Shown here: positions 1,577 through 26,949 of the stretch, in pieces
How positions within the stretch are numbered: position 1 is the first letter of the stretch
How the letters are laid out: the number at the start of each line of letters is the position of its first letter
Virus record (IMG/VR): IMGVR_UViG_3300045952_000062
Coordinates: 1-33,069 of that record
DNA from: a virus
Reading direction: 5' to 3' (one strand)
DNA: 33,069 bases
The notes under the pieces: model-generated
The model's input: only the letters and a program-made list of their open reading frames with translations
Databases searched by the model: none
Told to the model about the DNA's origin: nothing
Made by a program: the position numbers and the translations under genes

Positions 1577-1777
1577 ATGGCTGAGATCTGGAAACCTCTG
1601 GATATCCAAGTATACAAGGACTGGGTCTCAGCCATCCTCACTGAGGCTTCAGATAGCCTGAGTGATTGGGAGTCTGGATTCGTAGATTCAATCGAGGGCC
1701 AGTTGAATAGGGGCCGCATCCTCTCCCAAAAGCAAGCCGAGATTCTTGAAAGGATTTACTCAGAGAAGACTAAGTAA
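1577..1777 (+). CDS. Conserved-type small phage protein, unknown function (66 aa)
   Basis: A short soluble protein with the pattern SLSDWESGFVDSIEGQLNRGRILSQ and then QAEILERIYSEK. I recall this kind of sequence in small early-region proteins of many tailed phages (helix, a turn with S-x-W-E-x-x-F-V, then L-S-x-K-Q-x-x-x-L-x-x-I-Y), but no function is established for them. It begins with ATG four bases after the previous stop; GAGG or GGAG elements lie just upstream in the preceding gene (GACGAGGACGGAG). It is followed closely by the Tat-like/capsid-fragment gene, whose SD (AAGGAG, 1776-1781) overlaps its stop. Confidence 0.8.
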   Translation: MAEIWKPLDIQVYKDWVSAILTEASDSLSDWESGFVDSIEGQLNRGRILSQKQAEILERIYSEKTK

Positions 1778-1786
1778 GGAGCCGAG

Positions 1787-2062
1787 ATGAAACGTCGGGA
1801 ATTCATCAAGTCTCTTTTTGTAGCCGCCGTAGCCAGTCAAGTTCCTGTTGACTGCTCTCCGCCTCCACCTCTGTCTCTTTACGGTATCCCTTATCACCAA
1901 TCTAATGCTTTCTCCGGGACATGGTTGGGAATTGATCGCTCAACCTACCCTCAGTGGAGCAGCAAGGTCAGTCCCGCTGCCCATCGTGACGTTTACAAAG
2001 CTCTAGTTGAATTGGTCAGGAAGATAAGGATTGCAAATGAAAATCGACGTTGGCCTGATTGA
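1787..2062 (+). CDS. Tat-signal-like protein with a major-capsid-protein-like segment (91 aa)
   Basis: The first 22 residues look like a twin-arginine export signal: KRREFIK followed by a short hydrophobic run (SLFVAAVASQVPV). A Pro-rich linker (SPPPPL) comes next. Residues 33-57, from GIPYH to STYPQW, align without gaps to residues 228-252 of the major capsid protein encoded at 25705-26949, with 16 of 25 identical (P-Y-H, N-A, S-G, W-L-G, D-R, T-Y-P). The nucleotide codons differ mostly at third positions, so this is not a recent copy. The rest (60-91) is helical and similar only in character. The SD AAGGAG is at 1776-1781. The last 26 bases overlap the next gene. Export has not been shown; the RR motif may be fortuitous. 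The piece could be a decayed or repurposed capsid fragment. Confidence 0.75.
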   Translation: MKRREFIKSLFVAAVASQVPVDCSPPPPLSLYGIPYHQSNAFSGTWLGIDRSTYPQWSSKVSPAAHRDVYKALVELVRKIRIANENRRWPD

Positions 2063-3320
2063 GATCCCTGAACCTACCGAGAGCATAGAGGAGGAGACGC
2101 TCGTTGCCCTGACTGAGTCCATCAGAGAGCAAGGGCTGTCGCACCCCATAATAGTTCGCCCGGCGAACATTTCCGGTAGGTTCCTTCTGGCGTCTGGGGA
2201 GAAACGTCTATTGGCTGCGAAGCGTCTGGAGTGGACGCAGATCGAAGCCGAGATTCGAGATATAGATGAGAAGAAAGCCAAAGAGATCCGCATCCACGAA
2301 AACCTCAAACGCTTCAACCTCCCGTGGTGGGACCAGGTCAAACTCACCGAAGCGCTCCATCTCCTCAGACAAGAAGAACATGGCGTCGCACAAAGAGGCA
2401 GGCCGTCCAAGCAAGAGGAAAAGACGGGCTGGTCGATTCGTGACACTGCCGAAGAACTCGGCGTTGGTATTGGACCGCTTTCTGAGGACCTTTCGCTGGC
2501 CCGAGCCCTTCGCGCCGACCCGACGCTTTCTAAAGTTACTGACAAGAAGACGGCAATCAAGCTCATTCGGACCGCCGCTATTCGGCATGAAGCGGAGATG
2601 ACCGCTGGCCTCCCCTCCAAGATAGACTACAATCAAGTTTTATTTGGGGATGCTTCGGAACTTCTCAAGCATCTGCCCGACCAGTCCATCGACCACGCAA
2701 TCGTAGACCCACCTTGGATCAAATTCTTTGAGGAAAGTTTGACGATTGACGAGCGGACGCTGCCGGTCTTCAGGGAACTGTATCGCGTTCTCAAGTCTGG
2801 GTCGATGCTCTACATCTTCGCTGGCTTCGACGATTACGCTTACTACGCGGGCGTGACAGTCCCGGACCCCAACAATCCCAAGGAGACAACCAAGATACAG
2901 GGCCAGTTGGAGAAGCTGGGCTACAACGTCTCCTCTACTCCCATCGTTTGGCAGAAGCTCAGTTCATTGAGCAGGAGAGGCGTTAGGGCATGGGAGTATG
3001 ACAGGGACTTCGAGTTCATTGTAGTCGCAGCGAAAGGAGCACCCGCGCTCACTTCCTCCTCCCGCTTCTCAGGTGTCAAGCCCTTCGCTATCGTCCCTCC
3101 CGTCAAGATGATTCATCCGAACGAGAAGCCAGTTGAGTTGATCAAGGAAATCCTCAACGACTGCTCGTATCCCGGCAACATCATCCTTGACACCTTCGGC
3201 GGTTCTGGCGTTCTGGGTCAAGCCTGTAAGGAGACTGACAGGAAATACCTCATCATGGAACGGGACCGAGCCACCTACGAGAAGATCGTCAGAAGGCTGG
3301 AGGGAAACAATGGTAACTAA
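2037..3320 (+). CDS. ParB-like nuclease domain fused to DNA (N4/N6) methyltransferase
   Basis: A 427-residue protein in two parts. Residues 1-110 form a ParB/Srx-type N-terminal domain (PIIVRP 37-42, the GERR-like box SGEKRLLAAK 53-62, and HENLKR 87-92), followed by a helix-turn-helix-like stretch (WSIRDTAEELGVG, 132-144). Residues 198-420 are a methyltransferase: DPPW at 224-227 is the catalytic motif IV of amino-methylating enzymes, HPNEKP (360-365) and DTFGGSGVLGQA (385-396, motif I) bind AdoMet. Having DPPW before motif I gives the beta-class order. The enzyme should methylate adenine N6 or cytosine N4, perhaps protecting phage DNA from restriction or marking replication. I start at ATG 2037, six bases after AAGGA (2026-2030), rather than TTG 2031. 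No cognate restriction gene is nearby. Confidence 0.92.
   Translation: MKIDVGLIEIPEPTESIEEETLVALTESIREQGLSHPIIVRPANISGRFLLASGEKRLLAAKRLEWTQIEAEIRDIDEKKAKEIRIHENLKRFNLPWWDQVKLTEALHLLRQEEHGVAQRGRPSKQEEKTGWSIRDTAEELGVGIGPLSEDLSLARALRADPTLSKVTDKKTAIKLIRTAAIRHEAEMTAGLPSKIDYNQVLFGDASELLKHLPDQSIDHAIVDPPWIKFFEESLTIDERTLPVFRELYRVLKSGSMLYIFAGFDDYAYYAGVTVPDPNNPKETTKIQGQLEKLGYNVSSTPIVWQKLSSLSRRGVRAWEYDRDFEFIVVAAKGAPALTSSSRFSGVKPFAIVPPVKMIHPNEKPVELIKEILNDCSYPGNIILDTFGGSGVLGQACKETDRKYLIMERDRATYEKIVRRLEGNNGN
2154..2168. repeat. Palindromic repeat copy 1 (GTTCGCC-C-GGCGAAC)
   Basis: A perfect 7-bp inverted repeat around a single C. Together with its flanks it matches two other sites in the window (23704-23718 and 31042-31056): on the + strand here it reads ATAGTTCGCCCGGCGAACA. 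It sits inside the ParB-domain coding sequence, at residues 40-44. Confidence 0.6.
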
Positions 3321-3711
3321 GGTCTACATCGCAGCGCCGTCGCAGTTGCAGCTCAAGTGCAGGAGTGTCAAGCGGTCCTTGGAGTTGCATGGTCATAAGG
3401 TCACGAGCCGTTGGATAGACCACAATGACCTTTACTCCCCTAGCTTCGAGGTCCAGCAGGCAGGAGCTATCGTCGACCTGGAGGATGTAGCAGAGGCAGA
3501 CATTCTTCTCGCTTTCAATCCAGACGAATTCAGAAACTCAGGAACAGGCGGACGCCACGTTGAGCTCGGTTACGCTATCGCTCTCAAGAAGCCAATCCTT
3601 CTGATTGGTGAGAGGACTAACGTCTTTCATTATCATCCGTTGGTGACGTTCATCCCGGATGGTGACTTCTTGAAGGCAGTAGGACTGTTCCGTGCTTCTT
3701 CCTCCATCTAA
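3310..3711 (+). CDS. Nucleoside 2-deoxyribosyltransferase-like protein
   Basis: A 133-residue Rossmann-like protein starting VYIAAPSQLQLK. It shows the features of the nucleoside 2-deoxyribosyltransferase superfamily: an N-terminal V-Y-I-A-A-P strand, a D-x-x-x-x-x-A-D-I-L-L-A-F strand (residues 60-69), and G-G-R-H-V-E-L-G-Y-A-I-A at 80-91, where Glu85 is in the place of the catalytic nucleophile. The family moves deoxyribose between bases or hydrolyses (deoxy)nucleotides; in phages it belongs to nucleotide salvage or modified-base metabolism. The start is ATG 3310, with GGAGGG just upstream, overlapping the methyltransferase by 11 bases. The end overlaps the polymerase by 20 bases. Substrate cannot be told from sequence. 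Confidence 0.88.
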   Translation: MVTKVYIAAPSQLQLKCRSVKRSLELHGHKVTSRWIDHNDLYSPSFEVQQAGAIVDLEDVAEADILLAFNPDEFRNSGTGGRHVELGYAIALKKPILLIGERTNVFHYHPLVTFIPDGDFLKAVGLFRASSSI

Positions 3712-6217
3712 ATACATCCCTGGCTACGGCAACCGGGACGCCTCGATGATGTTCGTCGGCGAGGCGCCAGGAGCGGCTGAGGACTTCACCGGCATTCCCT
3801 TCAACGGTCCATCTGGAGATCTGCTTTGGGAAATTTGCCGCGAGTTGGGATTCGATAGACACTCCGTCTATACCACCAACGTCTTCAAGTATCGACCTCC
3901 TCAGAACAACCTCAAGAGGCTTGGCGAAATAGGGGACCACGAAGGCAATCCTATCACTTGGGACAATTCTCTCGACCAGCTCTGGGACGAGATTCAGACA
4001 ATCAATCCCAACATCATAGTCGCGCTTGGTAACACTCCACTTAAGGCACTGACCGGCCGCGATAAGATTATGCGTTGGCGCGGGTCTGTTGTAAGGAGCA
4101 ATAACCTTGACTACAAAGTCCTCGCGACGATTCACCCCGCTGCCCTCCTCCACGCTGAAGCAAATGAGGGCGAGAAAGAAGGAAAGCGAAAAGGTCCACT
4201 CAAGTATTCCTACCGGCATATCCTTAAGCTTGACCTTGCACGTGCCCTCAAGCAATCTGAATCGAGGTTATACGAACCGCCTCCGCGCCAGCTTGAAATC
4301 ATTCGGGATACAGTTCAACTCGGTAGATTTCTCCAACTATATGGGGACAGAGGTAAATTTCCCATTGTCTCTGTCGACATTGAGGTCATTAAGTCTGTTC
4401 CTTTCTGCATTGCTCTCGCATTTAACAACTGGCACGCGGTCTCAGTCCCGCTCTTAGACGTTTTCAAGTGGCAGGGTCAGGAGGGTATAGCAGACCATGA
4501 ACTCGCGGAGATGTGGCGGATGGTTGCTGAGCTTCTGGCAACAGACGTCAAAGTCATCGGCCAGAATTTCAAGTTCGACCAGAGACAGCTTAGCGACCTG
4601 TGCGGCATTCGTATCCGCAATTTCTTCTGCGATACATCTCTCCTTGCTCACGCTCTGCATTCGGAGTTCCCGAAAGCACTTGAGTTCACAACATCCATCT
4701 ACACGGAAGAGCCATACTACAAGGAAGAGGGACGGGAGTTCGATTGGAAGAGAGACAAGATCGAGCGGTTCCTGACCTACAATGCCAGAGATGCAGCCGT
4801 AACCTACGAGGTCTATGAGCAGATGATGCAGGAGGCTAGGGAGACGATAGTTCCTGGCTTCCCAAACTGGATAGAGGAATTCATATTCGGTCATCAGATG
4901 AAGCTGCACGAATTCTACTACGAGATGGATGACGTAGGGTTCGTAACCAACCTAGGAAAGCAGAAGGAGTTTGTCAAGTATTACGATGGGCTCATTGCTC
5001 AGTCAGCCCTTGAGCTAAATCAGATAGCAGGGTGGGAGGTGAACGCTAGGTCGCCCAAGCATCTAGCCGTCCTTCTCTACAATCAGCTCAAGTTCCCACA
5101 GAGGAAAGGCACGGGTGAGGACGTTCTCGTAGCGTTGATGGCGAACACGAAAAAGATTACGCCACCCATGCGGAGAGCTTGCGAGTTGATCCTCTTAATC
5201 CGCAGGCTCAGAAGTGCGCGGCTCAAGATAGGAAGGAGACCTGATTTCGATGGTAGGATGAAAACCGTTTTCCGTATCGTAGGGACAGAGACTGGCCGCT
5301 CCTCGACGTCCATCATGAAGCCGCCTGTCCGTCCTGAGAAAATGGGAATCGAGTTCCATACTCTTACCAAGCACGGCGACATTGGGACCGAAGTGAGGGA
5401 GATGCTCGAAGCTGACCCCGGCTACGTGATTGTCGAGACTGACATGAGCCAAGCCGAGGCGCGCATCGTTGCCCTGTTTGGACGTGACAAGAGGATTCTG
5501 GAGTTGTTCGCTCAGAAGGCTGACGTCCATAGGCTGACAGCCTCGTGGATATTCGGAGTCAAACCTGAGCAGATAACTAAGGAACTACGATTCATCGGCA
5601 AGACCTGCCGACATGCTGGTAACTACGACATGGGAAAACATAGGCTCATGGAGCTAGTCAACACGGAAGCAAAAAGGCAGAAGCTCGATGTCAACATCTC
5701 TGAATACAAAGCAGGCAAAATCCTCGACTCTTTCCACGCTTTCTCTCCTGCAATCCGTGGTGTCTTCCATACGGAAATACAGGAAGCCCTCGCAAACAAT
5801 GGTCGTATCCTTGTCAATCCATTTGGGCGTTATCGACAGTTCTATGATAGGTTCGGGAAAGAGCTCTTCAAGGAAGCCTACGCGCATCTACCACAATCAA
5901 CTGTCCCGGATGCTGTCAGGCGGGCGGGGATGCGTAGCAAGGTTCGATTTCAACGAGAAGGAATTGACGCCCGATTTGTTGTCGAGGCTCATGACGCTCT
6001 TGTCGGACTTGTGCGGGAAAAGGATGTAGACGCTTACATCCAAATCATCCATCAAGAGATCGAAGTTCCCATCGACTTCTCGCGCTGCACCATCTCGCGC
6101 GGTTCTCTGGTTATCCCGGCTGAGTCGAAGGTCGGATACAACTATAAGACCTGCGAGAACAAGACTTGTCCAGGCTGCAAGCAGCTCCATGATTACAAGC
6201 TCCAACGTGCTGCATGA
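3692..6217 (+). CDS. Uracil-DNA glycosylase / family A DNA polymerase fusion
   Basis: An 841-residue replicative polymerase. Residues 20-190 are a family 4/5-type uracil-DNA glycosylase (GEAPGAAED 23-31, NGPSGDLL 38-45, TNVFKYRPPQN 62-72, and HPAAL 148-152), but the four Fe-S cysteines of family 4 are absent. Residues 225-380 are a DnaQ-like 3'-5' exonuclease: D229-I-E231, N292-F-K-F-D296, and Y363-N-A-R-D367. Residues 400-810 are the polymerase: TETGRSS (532-538), motif A D584-M-S-Q-A-E-A-R, O-helix R633/K637/H641/Y645, and motif C H767-D768-A769. The usual Phe/Tyr of the O-helix is His, and the usual Glu of motif C is Ala. A C-terminal C821-x4-C826-x2-C829-x3-H833 cluster may bind zinc. The start is GTG 3692; no ATG lies before the glycosylase core. 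Confidence 0.95.
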   Translation: MLLPPSKYIPGYGNRDASMMFVGEAPGAAEDFTGIPFNGPSGDLLWEICRELGFDRHSVYTTNVFKYRPPQNNLKRLGEIGDHEGNPITWDNSLDQLWDEIQTINPNIIVALGNTPLKALTGRDKIMRWRGSVVRSNNLDYKVLATIHPAALLHAEANEGEKEGKRKGPLKYSYRHILKLDLARALKQSESRLYEPPPRQLEIIRDTVQLGRFLQLYGDRGKFPIVSVDIEVIKSVPFCIALAFNNWHAVSVPLLDVFKWQGQEGIADHELAEMWRMVAELLATDVKVIGQNFKFDQRQLSDLCGIRIRNFFCDTSLLAHALHSEFPKALEFTTSIYTEEPYYKEEGREFDWKRDKIERFLTYNARDAAVTYEVYEQMMQEARETIVPGFPNWIEEFIFGHQMKLHEFYYEMDDVGFVTNLGKQKEFVKYYDGLIAQSALELNQIAGWEVNARSPKHLAVLLYNQLKFPQRKGTGEDVLVALMANTKKITPPMRRACELILLIRRLRSARLKIGRRPDFDGRMKTVFRIVGTETGRSSTSIMKPPVRPEKMGIEFHTLTKHGDIGTEVREMLEADPGYVIVETDMSQAEARIVALFGRDKRILELFAQKADVHRLTASWIFGVKPEQITKELRFIGKTCRHAGNYDMGKHRLMELVNTEAKRQKLDVNISEYKAGKILDSFHAFSPAIRGVFHTEIQEALANNGRILVNPFGRYRQFYDRFGKELFKEAYAHLPQSTVPDAVRRAGMRSKVRFQREGIDARFVVEAHDALVGLVREKDVDAYIQIIHQEIEVPIDFSRCTISRGSLVIPAESKVGYNYKTCENKTCPGCKQLHDYKLQRAA

Positions 6218-12951: not shown

Positions 12952-13340
12952 TAGAGCCTCCTCAGTAGCAGCTCCCCAGGATTGTCAACTCGATCGAACG
13001 AGAAGTGTTTTTGTATGAGCAAGGAGAAATCCGGATCTCGTATAAAGCAGTAGATATCCTTAATGCCCGCGAGGTCTGTGCCTCTGAAAGCCTCATGCAT
13101 GAGTAACCGAGTAGCAGCAGCGCGATCTCGTTTTCTAACAGTCGGGTCAAGAAAGAGCATCGCTTCGGCGAATAGTCTGACTTGCCCGTAGCCCACCACT
13201 CTGTCCGACTCATCGACCGCAACAGCATCGATTATCCTGCTCTCTAATCCCGGTAGCGAAGACTCATGCGACCAGTGTTCTCGCCAGAGTGTGTCGAGCG
13301 TGAGAATGTCAGATGGCGTCAAAGTTCGGAGTTTTATCAT
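12951..13340 (-). CDS. GNAT-like N-acetyltransferase domain protein (129 aa)
   Basis: A small protein with the GNAT strand order: KLRTLTPSDILTLDTLW at the start, AVAVDESDRVVGYGQVRL (39-56) as the beta hairpin, MLFLDPTVRKRDRAAATRLLMHEAF (61-85) as the acetyl-CoA strand and helix, and a C-terminal DPDFSLLIQKHFSF. The Q/R-x-x-G-x-G/A acetyl-CoA loop is degenerate, with R-K-R-D-R-A in its place, so activity is uncertain. Two readings are possible. It may be the counterpart of the small GNAT-like protein that precedes the internal virion genes in T7-like phages (gene 13 position), or it may be a third modifying enzyme of the cassette upstream. Its start lies 32 bases inside the methyltransferase gene and its stop overlaps the next start (TAATG). 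Confidence 0.85.
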   Translation of the reverse strand: MIKLRTLTPSDILTLDTLWREHWSHESSLPGLESRIIDAVAVDESDRVVGYGQVRLFAEAMLFLDPTVRKRDRAAATRLLMHEAFRGTDLAGIKDIYCFIRDPDFSLLIQKHFSFDRVDNPGELLLRRL

Positions 13341-14649
13341 AGACGAAGTAGTCCGCGATATTGGGGCCTTTGCTCACCCCAAGAGCATGTCGGAACGAAC
13401 CTATCTCGACAGGCTCAATGTTGCCGTTGTAAGAGTAAATGACGAGAAAGCGGCAGCGACGCTCCAGAATAGCTCTGAGCTTGGTCCATCCCTCAGGGTT
13501 TTCGAGGAGGCGAGCCCGAGAAATAAGAGCAAGATCGAAATTATCAGGAAGGTCATCAAGGCTCCAGATATTAGCAGCAAGATGAGGCCTGTTTTTGGGG
13601 TCGGAGTCCACGCCGAAAATCTCCGCTCCAAACTCCTTTTCAAGTTTTCTGAGAAGTTCGCCATTACCACACCCAAAGTCTATGACGGAGGTAAAGGGTT
13701 GGATTCTGAGTAAGTCGAGAATAAGATTGTGTGCGTCTATCTCGGACTGTTTGTCCCTGAAGCCGTTATCCTGTGGACTGGTTTTGAGATAGGGAAACTT
13801 GAGTCCTGTAGCTGCTTCCTTCGGACCAGTGTTGCTATGGAGGCGGACGATTTTCTTCTCTGACAGCATATCGGTTCGCACTACTATCCGACACACTGGA
13901 GTAGAGATGATGGCGATTCCATGCAAACCTGACCACTCGATAGGCCAGGAGAGAATCTCTTTCAGAAGGTCAGCGAAAGTCCGACGACCCAGTCTAAGAG
14001 CGAGGTTGTAATAAAGCTCGCCCACTCTGCGAGTGTGAGGGCAATCGAAACTGCACGGAAGATGAGATACAAAACGAAGTCCCAGCCAGCGTAGGAGGAT
14101 ATTGTTAAAAGGACTGACAGCGAAATGATCAACAACGCCAGACGACATAGGAAAGCTAGTGTCCAGCCAGCTATCGTTCGTCCAAATTTTATTGAAGAAC
14201 GAAATGCAGCACAGAGGATAGCCGAGAAGCTCCCCAATCTGCTCATGGTCGCCAGCTTTGTAAGCGAGAACCATCCGGCTCACTTCCTTGGGCTGACCAA
14301 TAGCCAGCTTATATCCCCAGGGTCGGTTCAGGTCTACCAGCGAAGCCGAGGACGAATAGATGTCACTCAGCTGAACCTTGTCAACAGGAGCTACAAAGAG
14401 CCCCTCCAGCGTCTTTTTCTGCGTAAACTCATCCAGCTTATCGGCCGGACAGATTTGCAGACAGATATCTCGTAGCCCATATTTGACCGACTCTCCCTCC
14501 AGCCACTGGAAAAGACTCGAACACTCTTGAAAGACGCTTTCCCAGACTTCCCTAGCCTGACTGGAGGTCCAATTAAGCCGGACGAACTCTGCAGCCAGGT
14601 CCGGCTGCTTGACGAGATTGGTCCGTATGGTCTCCATGAGAATCCCCAT
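13309..14649 (-). CDS. Cys-rich GYPLCC-domain / SAM methyltransferase fusion protein (446 aa)
   Basis: A two-part protein. Residues 90-250 carry LLGYPLCCISFF (141-152) and HLPCSFDCPHT (196-206). This arrangement of paired cysteines recalls the DUF483-type 'GYPxCC' family as I remember it; the four cysteines and two histidines could bind metal or be redox-active. Residues 318-440 are a class I AdoMet methyltransferase: VIDFGCGNGELL (322-333) is motif I and FGVDSD (345-350) ends strand 2. The pairing with a radical SAM/SPASM protein immediately upstream, overlapping by 77 bases, points to a joint protein-modification pathway. Starts at 14649 or 14637 are both possible. The target is unknown; the HxD-repeat protein two genes upstream is the obvious candidate. 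Confidence 0.92.
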   Translation of the reverse strand: MGILMETIRTNLVKQPDLAAEFVRLNWTSSQAREVWESVFQECSSLFQWLEGESVKYGLRDICLQICPADKLDEFTQKKTLEGLFVAPVDKVQLSDIYSSSASLVDLNRPWGYKLAIGQPKEVSRMVLAYKAGDHEQIGELLGYPLCCISFFNKIWTNDSWLDTSFPMSSGVVDHFAVSPFNNILLRWLGLRFVSHLPCSFDCPHTRRVGELYYNLALRLGRRTFADLLKEILSWPIEWSGLHGIAIISTPVCRIVVRTDMLSEKKIVRLHSNTGPKEAATGLKFPYLKTSPQDNGFRDKQSEIDAHNLILDLLRIQPFTSVIDFGCGNGELLRKLEKEFGAEIFGVDSDPKNRPHLAANIWSLDDLPDNFDLALISRARLLENPEGWTKLRAILERRCRFLVIYSYNGNIEPVEIGSFRHALGVSKGPNIADYFVYDKTPNFDAI

Positions 14650-15748
14650 GAGGAACGTCCCCGTGCTCTGTTATCTGACCAGTCAGTGAACCGATAAATT
14701 CTCGATTCATTTGGTCGAAGTCTAGCAAGGACTCGCCACTGACCTGTATGTCGGCTCTGATATGGTCCATCAGTTTATACCAAAACTGACAGTCTTTCGT
14801 CCGATTCCGCCAGTCTCCGTCGATAGCTGTGCCCGGACACTGACCTTTGCAAGCGAAGAAGTAGAGACAGTCCTTGCAGCCTCCATCCTTCCACTCTGTC
14901 TTGGCAAGAGCTTCGTATCTTTCACGACTCGGGGTGTTTGCTTTGAGCCAGTCTATTCCTTCCTTGGTCGTTCTTCCACAGTTTACAAGCGCGCCCTCTG
15001 GGTTGATTCCATGGACGGCCGGCGTAGTGAGAGGGTCACAGCCTGACCAGATGCAGGTCGCACTCGCGTTCCTCTTGGTCAGCAGCTGTTTGATGTCCTC
15101 GAATGGGAGATACTTGATTTTCGACTGCCTCGTATCGTCGTAGATTGCCTTGAAGATGTCGAAGTTCTCTTCGTCAGTCAGGTCAAGGCTCTCGGCGGTT
15201 TCTATGTTGTCTACCTCAAGGTTGTGGAGATTCACTTGCTTGACCCCGAGAAGCTCCATATCCTTGAAGAAGCGAAGCAGACCCGGCAGATGTTCGACGC
15301 TCTTGCGATGGATGGTAGTGATAAGAGAGACCTCAACGCCTTCAGAGGTCATGAGTTGGATGTTGTCGATGATTTTCCTGGTTATTTCGTCAGAGCATCG
15401 AGGACTGTTTGCTCCCTCCGGTCCATCAATCGAGACTCCGACATGAACTCGATAAGCACGAAACATATCAACATGAGCAGGAGTAACAAGAGTGCCGTTA
15501 GTCTGAATACCATTACTACGGAACTTCTGATATCCATACTCCCAAATCTCCTTCAACTGCTCGATGGATGCAAGTAGAGGCTCGCCGCCAAAGACAGAGA
15601 AAGACTGATTCGATCTGCTCAAAGCCTCCTTTACCTTTACGAAGTTGAGAGGGGCAGAGAAATTTCCAGCTTCCCTCATAGGCTCCTGATAACAGTAGGT
15701 GCAGCTGAGGTTGCACTTGATTCCGACGGGCAAGTATTCTACTGTCAT
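14573..15748 (-). CDS. Radical SAM/SPASM protein with C-terminal HxD tail (391 aa)
   Basis: A complete radical SAM maturase. C12-x3-C16-x2-C19 binds the catalytic 4Fe-4S cluster and AdoMet, followed by FGGEPLL (53-59, the GGEP motif) and VSIDGP (105-110). The C-terminal SPASM domain fits its consensus exactly: C237-x14-G252-x4-C257, then C291-x2-C294-x5-C300-x3-C304 and C320, which can hold auxiliary clusters. The family includes anaerobic sulfatase-maturating enzymes and RiPP peptide maturases acting on proteins. Residues 362-376 are four H-x-D motifs (HGD, HGD, HGD, HTD), the same motif as the repeats of the upstream protein. Its ATG overlaps that gene's stop (ATGA), giving coupled translation. 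No RiPP leader-binding domain at the N-terminus was visible. Confidence 0.95.
   Translation of the reverse strand: MTVEYLPVGIKCNLSCTYCYQEPMREAGNFSAPLNFVKVKEALSRSNQSFSVFGGEPLLASIEQLKEIWEYGYQKFRSNGIQTNGTLVTPAHVDMFRAYRVHVGVSIDGPEGANSPRCSDEITRKIIDNIQLMTSEGVEVSLITTIHRKSVEHLPGLLRFFKDMELLGVKQVNLHNLEVDNIETAESLDLTDEENFDIFKAIYDDTRQSKIKYLPFEDIKQLLTKRNASATCIWSGCDPLTTPAVHGINPEGALVNCGRTTKEGIDWLKANTPSRERYEALAKTEWKDGGCKDCLYFFACKGQCPGTAIDGDWRNRTKDCQFWYKLMDHIRADIQVSGESLLDFDQMNREFIGSLTGQITEHGDVPHGDSHGDHTDQSRQAAGPGCRVRPA
14621..14665 (-). repeat. Four H-x-D motifs at the end of the radical SAM protein
   Basis: Codons for HGD, HGD, HGD and HTD (residues 362-376 of the radical SAM protein). The first 29 bases of the downstream methyltransferase frame (ATG at 14649 and ATG at 14637) lie within this same DNA in another frame. 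The match to the repeats at 15769-16365 in motif and in small spacers (V-P, S) is clear. Confidence 0.8.
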
Positions 15749-16689
15749 GGTCCTATCAGTATCGGTTGGTCTACGTGAGCGACGTCGCCATGAGTGTCAG
15801 TGTGAGTGTCCTGGTGAACTGCGTCGCTATGAGAATCGCCATGTGGAGAGTCTGAGTGCGCTACGGTATCCCAGTAATCCCCATGAGTTGCGTATGGTGG
15901 AACATCTTGATGGGGACTATCAGAATGCCAATCGTCGTGGGCAAAGTCCCAGTGCTGTCCATAGTCCCAATGGTCAGGATGAGCAGGAGGAGCACCACCA
16001 GCACCATCAGTATGATCGCCGAACGTCCACTCATCGTAGTGTGTGGCTCCGTATGGGTTTCCCTCTGCACCATAGGGACTAGAGTAGCAATCTGCGTGCT
16101 CCCACCTTGTTCTGACTGGCCCATCGAAGTGAGTCCCAGGTGCAGCAACATCTCTCCAGCAATCGTTGTGGTCACCGAAATTGACTGCCGGAGTATCCCC
16201 ATGAGCAGAATCCCAAAAATCGCTATGAGGAGTATCATTATGCCAGTCGTCGTGAACGCTAGAAGGAGGGACATCCACATGAGCGTTGTCAACATGCGGA
16301 ACGTCGATGTGAGCGCCGTCCGTGTGAGCATCACCATGAGTATTGACAGTAGCGACGTCCCAGTGATTGTTGAGGACTTGATGACGCGTTCCATCGTAAT
16401 ACCACAGCCAGCTCAGGTAGTTGTTCGACTGTTCAACCCAAACGCTCGTGATGGGCGGTCCGAGCGGTATCGTCTTAACGTGGTTTACTGGGGTCCGATA
16501 GATGGCAGTGCCAGCTTCATTAACCCAATAAATACCAGCTGTAGTCCCAGAATCCTGCCAAATAGAGCCTGGTAGGGCTCCCGAGACATTCTTGATGAAA
16601 GTTCCAGGAGAATACCACTCACGATTAAAAGCATCGACATAGTGAAGGTCGTTCCCCTCGACCCAGAGCGAGCCAGCGACTTTAGCCAT
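15745..16689 (-). CDS. Fibre-like protein with 29 H-x-D repeats (candidate substrate of the rSAM enzyme)
   Basis: A 314-residue protein. Residues 1-107 contain three degenerate W-containing modules (GSLWVEGNDLHYVD, GSIWQDSGTTAGIYW, TSVWVEQSNNYLSW) of the sort found in phage tail and fibre proteins. From residue 109 to 307 every histidine is in H-x-D, 29 motifs in all, with the middle residue variable (W, G, T, I, V, D, N, S, F, A, Y, P, Q) and spacers of 0 to 20 residues. Aromatic residues and two cysteines (HNDC, HADC) are mixed in. No known fold is apparent; such a surface could bind metals. The gene starts in a TAATG overlap with a tail-fibre gene and its stop overlaps the radical SAM start, so it belongs to the virion operon. 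Probably a virion tail component that is modified; role inferred. Confidence 0.93.
   Translation of the reverse strand: MAKVAGSLWVEGNDLHYVDAFNREWYSPGTFIKNVSGALPGSIWQDSGTTAGIYWVNEAGTAIYRTPVNHVKTIPLGPPITSVWVEQSNNYLSWLWYYDGTRHQVLNNHWDVATVNTHGDAHTDGAHIDVPHVDNAHVDVPPSSVHDDWHNDTPHSDFWDSAHGDTPAVNFGDHNDCWRDVAAPGTHFDGPVRTRWEHADCYSSPYGAEGNPYGATHYDEWTFGDHTDGAGGAPPAHPDHWDYGQHWDFAHDDWHSDSPHQDVPPYATHGDYWDTVAHSDSPHGDSHSDAVHQDTHTDTHGDVAHVDQPILIGP
15769..16365 (-). repeat. H-x-D repeat region (29 motifs)
   Basis: Codes for residues 109-307 of the fibre-like protein. The repeat is at the amino-acid level; the DNA is not a simple tandem repeat, which suggests selection on the H and D positions rather than recent slippage. 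Confidence 0.85.
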
Positions 16690-23721: not shown

Positions 23722-24045
23722 TTATTTTCGGGTCGCCAAGTAGCTTATCGCACTTTGTAGTAGAGCGGGGTTATCCTTGAATCGACCCAGCCCCTGATTG
23801 CAATCGTCACAGAGGAGACCTCGAATTGCATCGTCTGAGTGCCTGTGGTCAACGACGAGAGTTTTGTCTGGGACAACACCGCAGATAGCACAACGGCCAG
23901 CCTGTTTCTCCAGCAGCTCTTGAAACTCAGATTCCCCAATCTTATACTTCCTCCAGAGATTGAGGTCTCTCGTTGTTCTCCCAACATACGGCCTTCTTTT
24001 TCGAGTCTCTATCTCCCTTTTCCTCTTGAAGAGTGGAGAGCTCAC
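23722..24045 (-). CDS. Recombination endonuclease VII-type HNH protein (107 aa)
   Basis: Residues 50-86 carry C52-x2-C55, the D66-H67-R-H69 catalytic box (VVDHRHSDDAIRGLLC) and C79-x2-C82-N83, followed by GLGRFKDNPALLQSAISYL. This is the T4 endonuclease VII-type HNH fold, with two CxxC pairs holding zinc; the enzyme cuts branched DNA, but most phage members of this size are free-standing homing nucleases. The basic N-terminus (FKRKREIETRKRRPY) would bind DNA. It starts GTG at 24045 overlapping the preceding stop (GTGA). Its presence in the middle of a structural operon suggests homing insertion, although a packaging-related nuclease role cannot be excluded. Confidence 0.9.
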   Translation of the reverse strand: MSSPLFKRKREIETRKRRPYVGRTTRDLNLWRKYKIGESEFQELLEKQAGRCAICGVVPDKTLVVDHRHSDDAIRGLLCDDCNQGLGRFKDNPALLQSAISYLATRK

Positions 24046-25704: not shown

Positions 25705-26949
25705 CTAGTAGCCAGTCGGAACCGTGAGTGCGTCAATGTAGCTGCACCCCGGCGGGTTGTTGATGAAGGTGTTGAAGCTCGCGACGAGATAGAACAGCGT
25801 CGCCGCGGCCACACCACCGGATGCTCCACGGACCTCGAAGAGGCGACGTCCTTCCTCCTCGTAGAATCCGGCAGGCTTCATCTCCGCACGGCCCCAGACC
25901 TCGTCGACCACGAAGTCGATGCGGGTCTTGTCCCAGTTGAAGTGCTTTCTCATGGGAACGCCCGCGATCTGCTGCACGTCGAAGTAGAGGTCGAGGTTCT
26001 CCTTGGCATTCGGCGTCTTGTTGATTTGCGTGACCAGTTGGCCAAGCTCCTCGTAAGCAGCCGCCTGACAGGGATTCAACCACGCCTTGCACTTGATCCC
26101 GTGCTCCATCCCGAGACGCTCGCCGATCTTGTTCAGCGCGCGACGAGCATGGGGCAGAGCCAGAGCACCAGCCGCGTTGATCCGGTTCGCCCGAATCTCG
26201 GGGTAGGTGTTCCGGTCGAGACCCAACCACGCTCCCGAAGAAGCGTTGTTGTGGTGATACGGGACGCCAAGGATACCGACGGGGTTTGCACCCGCGAGGC
26301 CCGAAGCGACGATCTTGTCGCCGTTCGTGACGTTCGCGACAGCAGTTCCCTCGTAGGTGATGGTCTTGGCCTCGGGGTCGGCAGAGATAACCTTCCGCTC
26401 GTCGCCGACCGTCCGCTGGGTGGTCAGTGTCGAGTTGTAGATGTTGATCTTCTGCCCGATGCGGATGAGACGTGTTCCGAATCCATCCGTCCCGAGAGTG
26501 AGCGTGGTGCCCGCGACGTTCGATACGACACCGAGGACGCCGTCGCCGGCAGTCATCAGGTTCGCGTCGACCATGCGGCGGAACTCCTTCATGGCGTTTG
26601 CCAGAAGGTGCTTGACCGAGTTGACAACCGACTTCCTTGCGTCGTCGGTCGCCCACTGAGTCTTCTTGTGCCATTCCACGGCATACTTGAAATTCACCGT
26701 GGAGATGGTCGCCTTTTCGAAGGTCGGACCTTCGCCGCGCCCCATGTCGCCACCTGCTGCGTCGTAGTAGCCGAAGAGGCCACCAGGACGAATCTCCAGC
26801 GGAATGCGCATGTCTCGCGCGGACACCTTCTCGACTTCGCGCTTTTCGACGTTCGCATAGAACATCGCATCGCGCTCGAAGAGAAGGGGAACTTTGGGAG
26901 CTACTCGCTCCAGTTCCGCGGCCACGACCTGAGACTCTGTTTGAGCCAT
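25705..26949 (-). CDS. Major capsid protein (414 aa)
   Basis: The position after the scaffold and before a small beta-rich protein, the 414-residue size, and patterns such as VPLLFERDAMFYANVEK, LEIRPGGLFGYYDAAGGDMGRG (51-72), FKYAVEWHKKTQWATDD (87-103) and GVPYHHNNASSGAWLGLDR (228-246) identify it as an HK97-fold type head protein of a family common in environmental phages. Many copies form the icosahedral shell on the scaffold. Residues 228-252 are the part mirrored in the early gene at 1787-2062. SD is GAGGACC upstream of ATG 26949. Its GC-rich, biased codon use is in line with high expression. Confidence 0.93.
   Translation of the reverse strand: MAQTESQVVAAELERVAPKVPLLFERDAMFYANVEKREVEKVSARDMRIPLEIRPGGLFGYYDAAGGDMGRGEGPTFEKATISTVNFKYAVEWHKKTQWATDDARKSVVNSVKHLLANAMKEFRRMVDANLMTAGDGVLGVVSNVAGTTLTLGTDGFGTRLIRIGQKINIYNSTLTTQRTVGDERKVISADPEAKTITYEGTAVANVTNGDKIVASGLAGANPVGILGVPYHHNNASSGAWLGLDRNTYPEIRANRINAAGALALPHARRALNKIGERLGMEHGIKCKAWLNPCQAAAYEELGQLVTQINKTPNAKENLDLYFDVQQIAGVPMRKHFNWDKTRIDFVVDEVWGRAEMKPAGFYEEEGRRLFEVRGASGGVAAATLFYLVASFNTFINNPPGCSYIDALTVPTGY

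Follow-up and report, generated by a model that had tools for sequence, protein, structure and literature searches.

We found that P0001, a 91-residue orphan open reading frame (ORF) in the early region of this phage, carries a segment homologous to a major capsid protein behind a Tat-signal-like start, and that it occupies a site that is empty in three relatives. We think it rather probable that P0001 is a young mosaic ORF produced by illegitimate recombination, with any capsid-related function being putative. The window, i.e. the whole 33,069-nucleotide stretch of viral DNA analysed here, contains the following features that define P0001 (MKRREFIKSLFVAAVASQVPVDCSPPPPLSLYGIPYHQSNAFSGTWLGIDRSTYPQWSSKVSPAAHRDVYKALVELVRKIRIANENRRWPD, start codon ATG) and its capsid counterpart:

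1776..1781, + strand: ribosome-binding site (RBS) of P0001, AAGGAG, overlapping the stop of a 66-aa gene; spacer to the ATG 5 nt
1787..2062, + strand: P0001, 91-aa orphan ORF with a Tat-signal-like N-terminus, a capsid-like middle and a predicted C-terminal helix
1787..1849, + strand: P0001 residues 1–21, Tat-signal-like, KRREFIK followed by a short hydrophobic run
1850..1960, + strand: P0001 residues 22–58, capsid-derived segment, corresponding to the loop before a capsid helix
1961..2036, + strand: P0001 residues 59–83, predicted helix (63–86)
25705..26949, − strand: major capsid protein gene, residues 217–253 of which are the counterpart of P0001 22–58

An initial annotation of the window had reported that residues 33–57 match residues 228–252 of the capsid protein, encoded on the opposite strand. 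We confirmed both the strand and the match (16 of 25 residues identical, ungapped). The Smith-Waterman score between P0001 and the capsid is 115, versus a mean of 27.6 and a maximum of 48 for shuffled sequences, and the second-best local score to the capsid among the 237 open frames of the window is 47. Homology begins about 11 residues before the stretch originally seen: hhalign of P0001 against a profile of 26 related capsids covers residues 22–58 (E-value 1.6e–13), and a capsid HMM independently detects window positions 1853–1957 (E-value 3.7e–11). The strong local, profile and HMM scores hence establish the segment as homologous to the capsid. Homology to family capsids does not exceed chance for residues 1–27 or 57–91. 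The window capsid matches the NCBIfam model NF033394 (capsid_maj_Podo, 4.5e–6), and the same podovirus capsid model is the sole NCBIfam match of P0001 (E-value 0.2, residues 41–65), far below the model cut-off; searches of Pfam, PHROGs and PADLOC gave no family for P0001 at E ≤ 1. Six residues of this stretch are invariant in the 26-capsid alignment (G228, Y231, H232, W241, R246 and P250) and P0001 retains all six, while beyond P55 it lacks the family invariants R253 and R256. AlphaFold models of the capsid (pLDDT 53, too weak beyond rough helix placement) and of P0001 (pLDDT 58, good for rough helix placement at most) place the capsid counterpart in a loop before helix 265–279 and predict a helix at P0001 residues 63–86. 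Sequence support for homology of the two helices is weak (positional P-value 0.03), and the capsid-derived piece, here from a lineage like that of L001, may extend through P0001 residues 59–83. The best Foldseek match of the capsid model is the cyanophage A-1(L) capsid, with a low TM-score.

The initial likening of the segment to the phage's own capsid has to be amended, in that the capsid gene of this phage is most likely not the source. DNA identity between the P0001 segment and this gene is 49/78, with many synonymous differences. The codon divergence had been read as a copy that is either old or from another capsid, and comparison with other lineages favours the latter. The left half of the segment is closer to the related capsids of L006 and L108 (TTPPPVSIFGVPYHHSNASTGYWLGFDRSTTPE; in L108, TTPPPVSIFGVPYHHSNA) than to the phage's own capsid (GANPVGILGVPYHHNNASSG). 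The right half (GIDRSTYPQWSSKV) matches a different lineage, that of L001 and L002, whose capsids carry GIDRSTYPQW, and past P55 P0001 continues to track this other lineage (L001 GTYAGIDRSTYPQWASNV, L002 GQYAAIDRSTYPQWAA). Within a 24-residue core, mean identity of P0001 to family capsids is 0.57, versus averages of 0.64–0.80 among the capsids themselves. The better fit to other lineages and the lower core identity argue for a donor other than the phage's own gene, most likely an unsampled capsid of another lineage. No capsid combining G[IV]PY and P-x-W was found.

The position of P0001 was compared with homologous loci of relatives. The genes of this part of the window follow one another as SSB-like (so called provisionally for its position and sequence; it matched no family), acidic, 66-aa, P0001, ParB-N/methyltransferase, deoxyribosyltransferase-like, UDG-exonuclease-polymerase A and primase-like. 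Two of these genes form the edges of the insert:

1577..1777, + strand: 66-aa gene upstream, left edge; in L060, L080 and L081 it lies directly before the methyltransferase gene
2037..3320, + strand: ParB-N/DNA methyltransferase gene, right edge (PF02195 1.1e–13, PF01555 2.9e–20)

In L060, L080 and L081 the 66-aa gene passes into the methyltransferase gene through a 4-bp overlap (GTGA or ATGA); L060 is the nearest relative with this region (methyltransferase 62% identical). As the flanking genes are joined directly at these empty sites, the insert measures about 250 bp (1787–2036). The overlap with the start of the next gene, noticed earlier, amounts to 26 nt: the methyltransferase ATG lies at 2037 and its AAGGA (2026–2030) is inside P0001. 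The interval between the acidic and methyltransferase genes of relatives is empty, holds the 66-aa gene, or holds one of several unrelated genes, with at least nine different arrangements among methyltransferase relatives. The site of P0001 is thus a variable cargo slot, and other cargo found in it comprises:

L076/L077, 82 aa; L079, 58 aa; L082, 61 aa; L087, 72 aa; L064, 85 aa
L085/L086, zinc-finger-like, 60 aa
L088/L089, kinase-like protein, 136 aa
L092:3209-3865, L093:3209-3865, L091:3210-3911 and L065:715-1371, all + strand: PEP-CTERM protein with an N-terminal signal (Pfam 2.1e–6)

The phage-encoded PEP-CTERM protein stands just before the ParB-methyltransferase gene in L065 and L091–L093. 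The window also contains two HNH genes, one for an endonuclease in the early region (209-607, + strand) and the other, endonuclease VII-like, located with the head genes (23722-24045, − strand); these could be drivers of cargo turnover.

Lack of conservation of the capsid-like part among relatives had been named beforehand as speaking against the proposed readings, and the homologue search found no conservation in the kin searched. Apart from the capsid proteins, the 46 capsid-kin records yielded a single match, which is very weak (G013, E-value 0.005), and P0001 is present in none of 26 methyltransferase loci representing early-region kin. Many kin records are fragments, so that lone absence is weak evidence and the complete intervals at methyltransferase loci are stronger. 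Searched by tblastn, 50,697 phage records yielded nothing significant for either P0001 or the capsid, and 589 pattern matches in 84,980 prokaryote genomes included no P0001 relative. Pattern searches of viral contigs for an RR-signal fused to GIDR gave six chance matches, none a relative, and the three matches to GxWLGIDRxT were all due to chance. In the viral and genome collections GIDR[ST]T[YF]PQ occurs only in L001, in L140, in a TonB-receptor-like C-terminus (L145) and in one false match. The G013 match is based on WLGIDRGT, located in a leader that lacks an RBS (L067:855-980 = G013:855-980, − strand, between SSB-like and acidic genes), and is most likely due to chance. Its place, some hundreds of bases upstream of the methyltransferase gene in this relative, is suggestive but probably coincidental.

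P0001 is probably coding, judged by its frame and RBS. Its codon usage is atypical: the log-odds is 0.004 per codon, within the off-frame range, whereas real 273-nt stretches of the phage average 0.287 and have their 5th percentile at 0.086. GC3 is 0.43, and some tail genes of the same phage also reach 0.40–0.45. This usage is compatible with recent foreign DNA or with absent selection on translation; functional young genes can also have atypical codon usage. We found neither a promoter nor a terminator belonging to P0001 (no sigma-70-like sites and one terminator-like site, at 1109, which is chance level). That in-frame usage is no better than off-frame and that P0001 is present in one genome only would suit an untranslated relic or an assembly artefact, i.e. 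a capsid fragment in decay in which a start happens to occur. We regard this as very unlikely, given an intact 91-codon frame, a strong RBS and junctions that fall exactly between two genes, and given the further coincidence needed for a Tat motif absent from 25,217 starts of relatives. Among the earlier ideas, the related one of a neutral relic preserved through overlapping the following gene comes closest to the evidence, but the intact frame, strong RBS and codon usage unlike the phage's fit a young mosaic insert better than an old relic.

The N-terminus was correctly recognized as Tat-like. In the n-region, KRREFIK comes close to (S/T)RRxFLK, the twin-arginine consensus, and of the 25,217 open starts of related loci none has RRxF[LIVMF]K and 15 have RRx[FL][LIVMF], placing the motif above chance. 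Relatives encode a possible counterpart in their early regions:

L094:210-671 and L098:192-650, + strand: protein of 152-153 aa with RR and a lipobox-like cysteine, encoded some 3.7 kb ahead of the methyltransferase gene

The signal of P0001 may also be a captured phage part: residues 1–28 score 42 against the L094 start (shuffle maximum 41; P-value 0.02 with the first eight residues fixed). With this likeness, the conserved RR and lipobox protein in L094 and L098 (66% identical) and the PEP-CTERM protein that L092 carries in this slot (Pfam E-value 2.1e–6), one could expect P0001 to be exported or membrane-held cargo acting in the envelope, e.g. in exclusion, with the signal as the part that matters and the capsid piece as filler. 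Such exported proteins in or near the slot of relatives count against the mosaic reading and make an exported function not outlandish. We nevertheless consider this improbable. The hydrophobic run is short (13 uncharged residues, 9–21; mean hydropathy 1.7), there is no clear cleavage site, VDC makes a poor lipobox and Pfam gave no family at E ≤ 1. The L094 likeness is marginal beyond the RR motif, and no convincing likeness to the L098 or L140 signals was found. The proposal of an exported capsid peptide likewise has no functional support, and no relative conserves P0001.

There are precedents for active peptides from capsids: Lit is activated by a 29-residue region of the T4 capsid (PMC3014915) and CapRel by newly made capsid protein (PMC9712102). 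An early P0001 peptide might accordingly mimic a capsid, either by binding capsid subunits that a competing phage or satellite is assembling or by occupying a capsid-sensing defence protein before the real capsid appears. The early location and the retained invariant residues point this way, and the latter, together with the intact frame and ideal RBS, count against a mosaic origin, as if the peptide mattered; recent capture would also lead one to expect this. Even taken together, the two variants seem unlikely to us. P0001 is not conserved in relatives and matches no defence-related family, and the known capsid-peptide cases trigger defence and do not block it. A dominant-negative fragment would also strike the phage's own assembly, and a Tat-type start would take the peptide out of the cytoplasm. 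A cytoplasmic mimic meeting capsid-sensing immunity is conceivable, but no selection for such a role was seen. When a tailed phage infects, its capsid remains outside the cell, and new capsids assemble in the cytoplasm, so an exported capsid piece would not encounter the incoming capsid and the decoy against superinfecting phages that had been proposed is hard to reconcile with a secretion-type signal; this awkward mechanism also has no functional support, and P0001 is conserved in no relative. The observation made in the initial annotation is thus confirmed, while its functional interpretation is not supported.

Overall, we suggest that P0001 originated as a mosaic in the following way. A segment of about 250 bp would have combined a capsid-gene piece, taken from a different lineage within the same wide phage group, with a preceding Tat-type start whose origin may be a signal or lipoprotein gene of related phages. 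Illegitimate recombination would then have placed this segment downstream of the 66-aa gene and ahead of the ParB-methyltransferase gene, in a slot where related phages exchange small cargo. P0001 would have taken over the strong RBS of the slot and is probably translated within the early operon. Since its 3' end now holds the methyltransferase start and RBS, it is probably kept at least as a translational coupler, and any capsid-related activity is expected to be weak or absent. The analysis establishes the capsid homology, the different donor lineage, the absence from kin and the empty site, whereas the recombination route, translation and the lack of a strong function are inferred. P0001 would then offer a clear snapshot of phage gene birth from part of a structural gene, an export-type start and a slot with a ready RBS. 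If the peptide is active, it represents a separate early gene for a capsid mimic, with a bearing on capsid-sensing immunity and phage-phage competition; if inactive, much apparent function in phage orphan genes may be recombination debris.

It might also be that phages of this group have more than once built small non-capsid genes around short pieces of capsid that serve as working peptide modules; P0001 would then be a case furnished with an export signal. There are two leads for this:

L140:1628-2311, + strand: 227-aa gene before terminase; a non-capsid protein with the C-terminal end YLGIDRSTYPQFSSKV and a short tail
L106 (G047:36562-36867), − strand, and L005:1135-1494, + strand: small gene directly before terminase, common to two relatives

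In L140, a 4.1-kb viral contig, the tail peptide is nearly the same as P0001 residues 46–61. The BLASTP value between the two proteins (9e–8) is inflated, since L140 was picked by this motif, and hhalign of the L140 protein against the capsid family gives only 0.0022. Part of the G047/L005 gene product resembles the C-terminal end of the capsid (YExxGxxxFEVR...FY; hhalign 1.7e–5). Both likenesses may be short-motif coincidences, and GIDRSTYPQ in the L145 receptor indicates that the nonamer can arise independently. If both leads were true, capsid-segment capture would be recurrent, but we find this quite unlikely. An RR-signal-like gene with a GTG start (MNRRGFLALFSALAAFPALV) also lies upstream in L140, at 675.

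Two further gene arrangements were observed in the window. A family A DNA polymerase with N-terminal uracil-DNA glycosylase and 3'-5' exonuclease domains is encoded at 3692-6217 (+ strand). In the tail gene block, a radical-SAM gene (Pfam 2e–14) and a methyltransferase-like gene adjoin a protein with H-x-D repeats (HGD, HVD, HSD), and the first two look like a peptide-modifying pair beside a possible substrate:

14573-15748, − strand: radical-SAM gene
13309-14649, − strand: methyltransferase-like gene
15745-16689, − strand: 314-aa H-x-D-repeat protein

Compared with the HK97-fold major capsid proteins of NF033394, P0001 residues 22–58 are homologous to the segment before a helix, but the full domain architecture and length (about 300–420 aa) are absent. 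With 91 residues and one aligned 37-residue segment, P0001 lacks about 85–90% of a capsid protein and cannot form a capsid subunit. Its parallel with the T4 Gol peptide is that a short capsid segment, of some 30 residues, comes into question as an active peptide; however, Gol is part of full-length gp23, whereas P0001 is a separate early gene. With Tat signals and Tat lipoproteins such as those of L094 and L098 it shares the RRxF start and a hydrophobic run, but its h-region is shorter, its lipobox is not good and the mature parts are unrelated. P0001 also corresponds to phage morons and other variable cargo genes: it is a small extra gene between conserved co-oriented genes, found in one genome only and absent at the homologous empty site in kin, its composition differs from that of the phage, and each relative holds a different cargo. 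Unlike morons, it has no promoter or terminator that we could find and reads from the operon, and part of its content comes from a structural gene.
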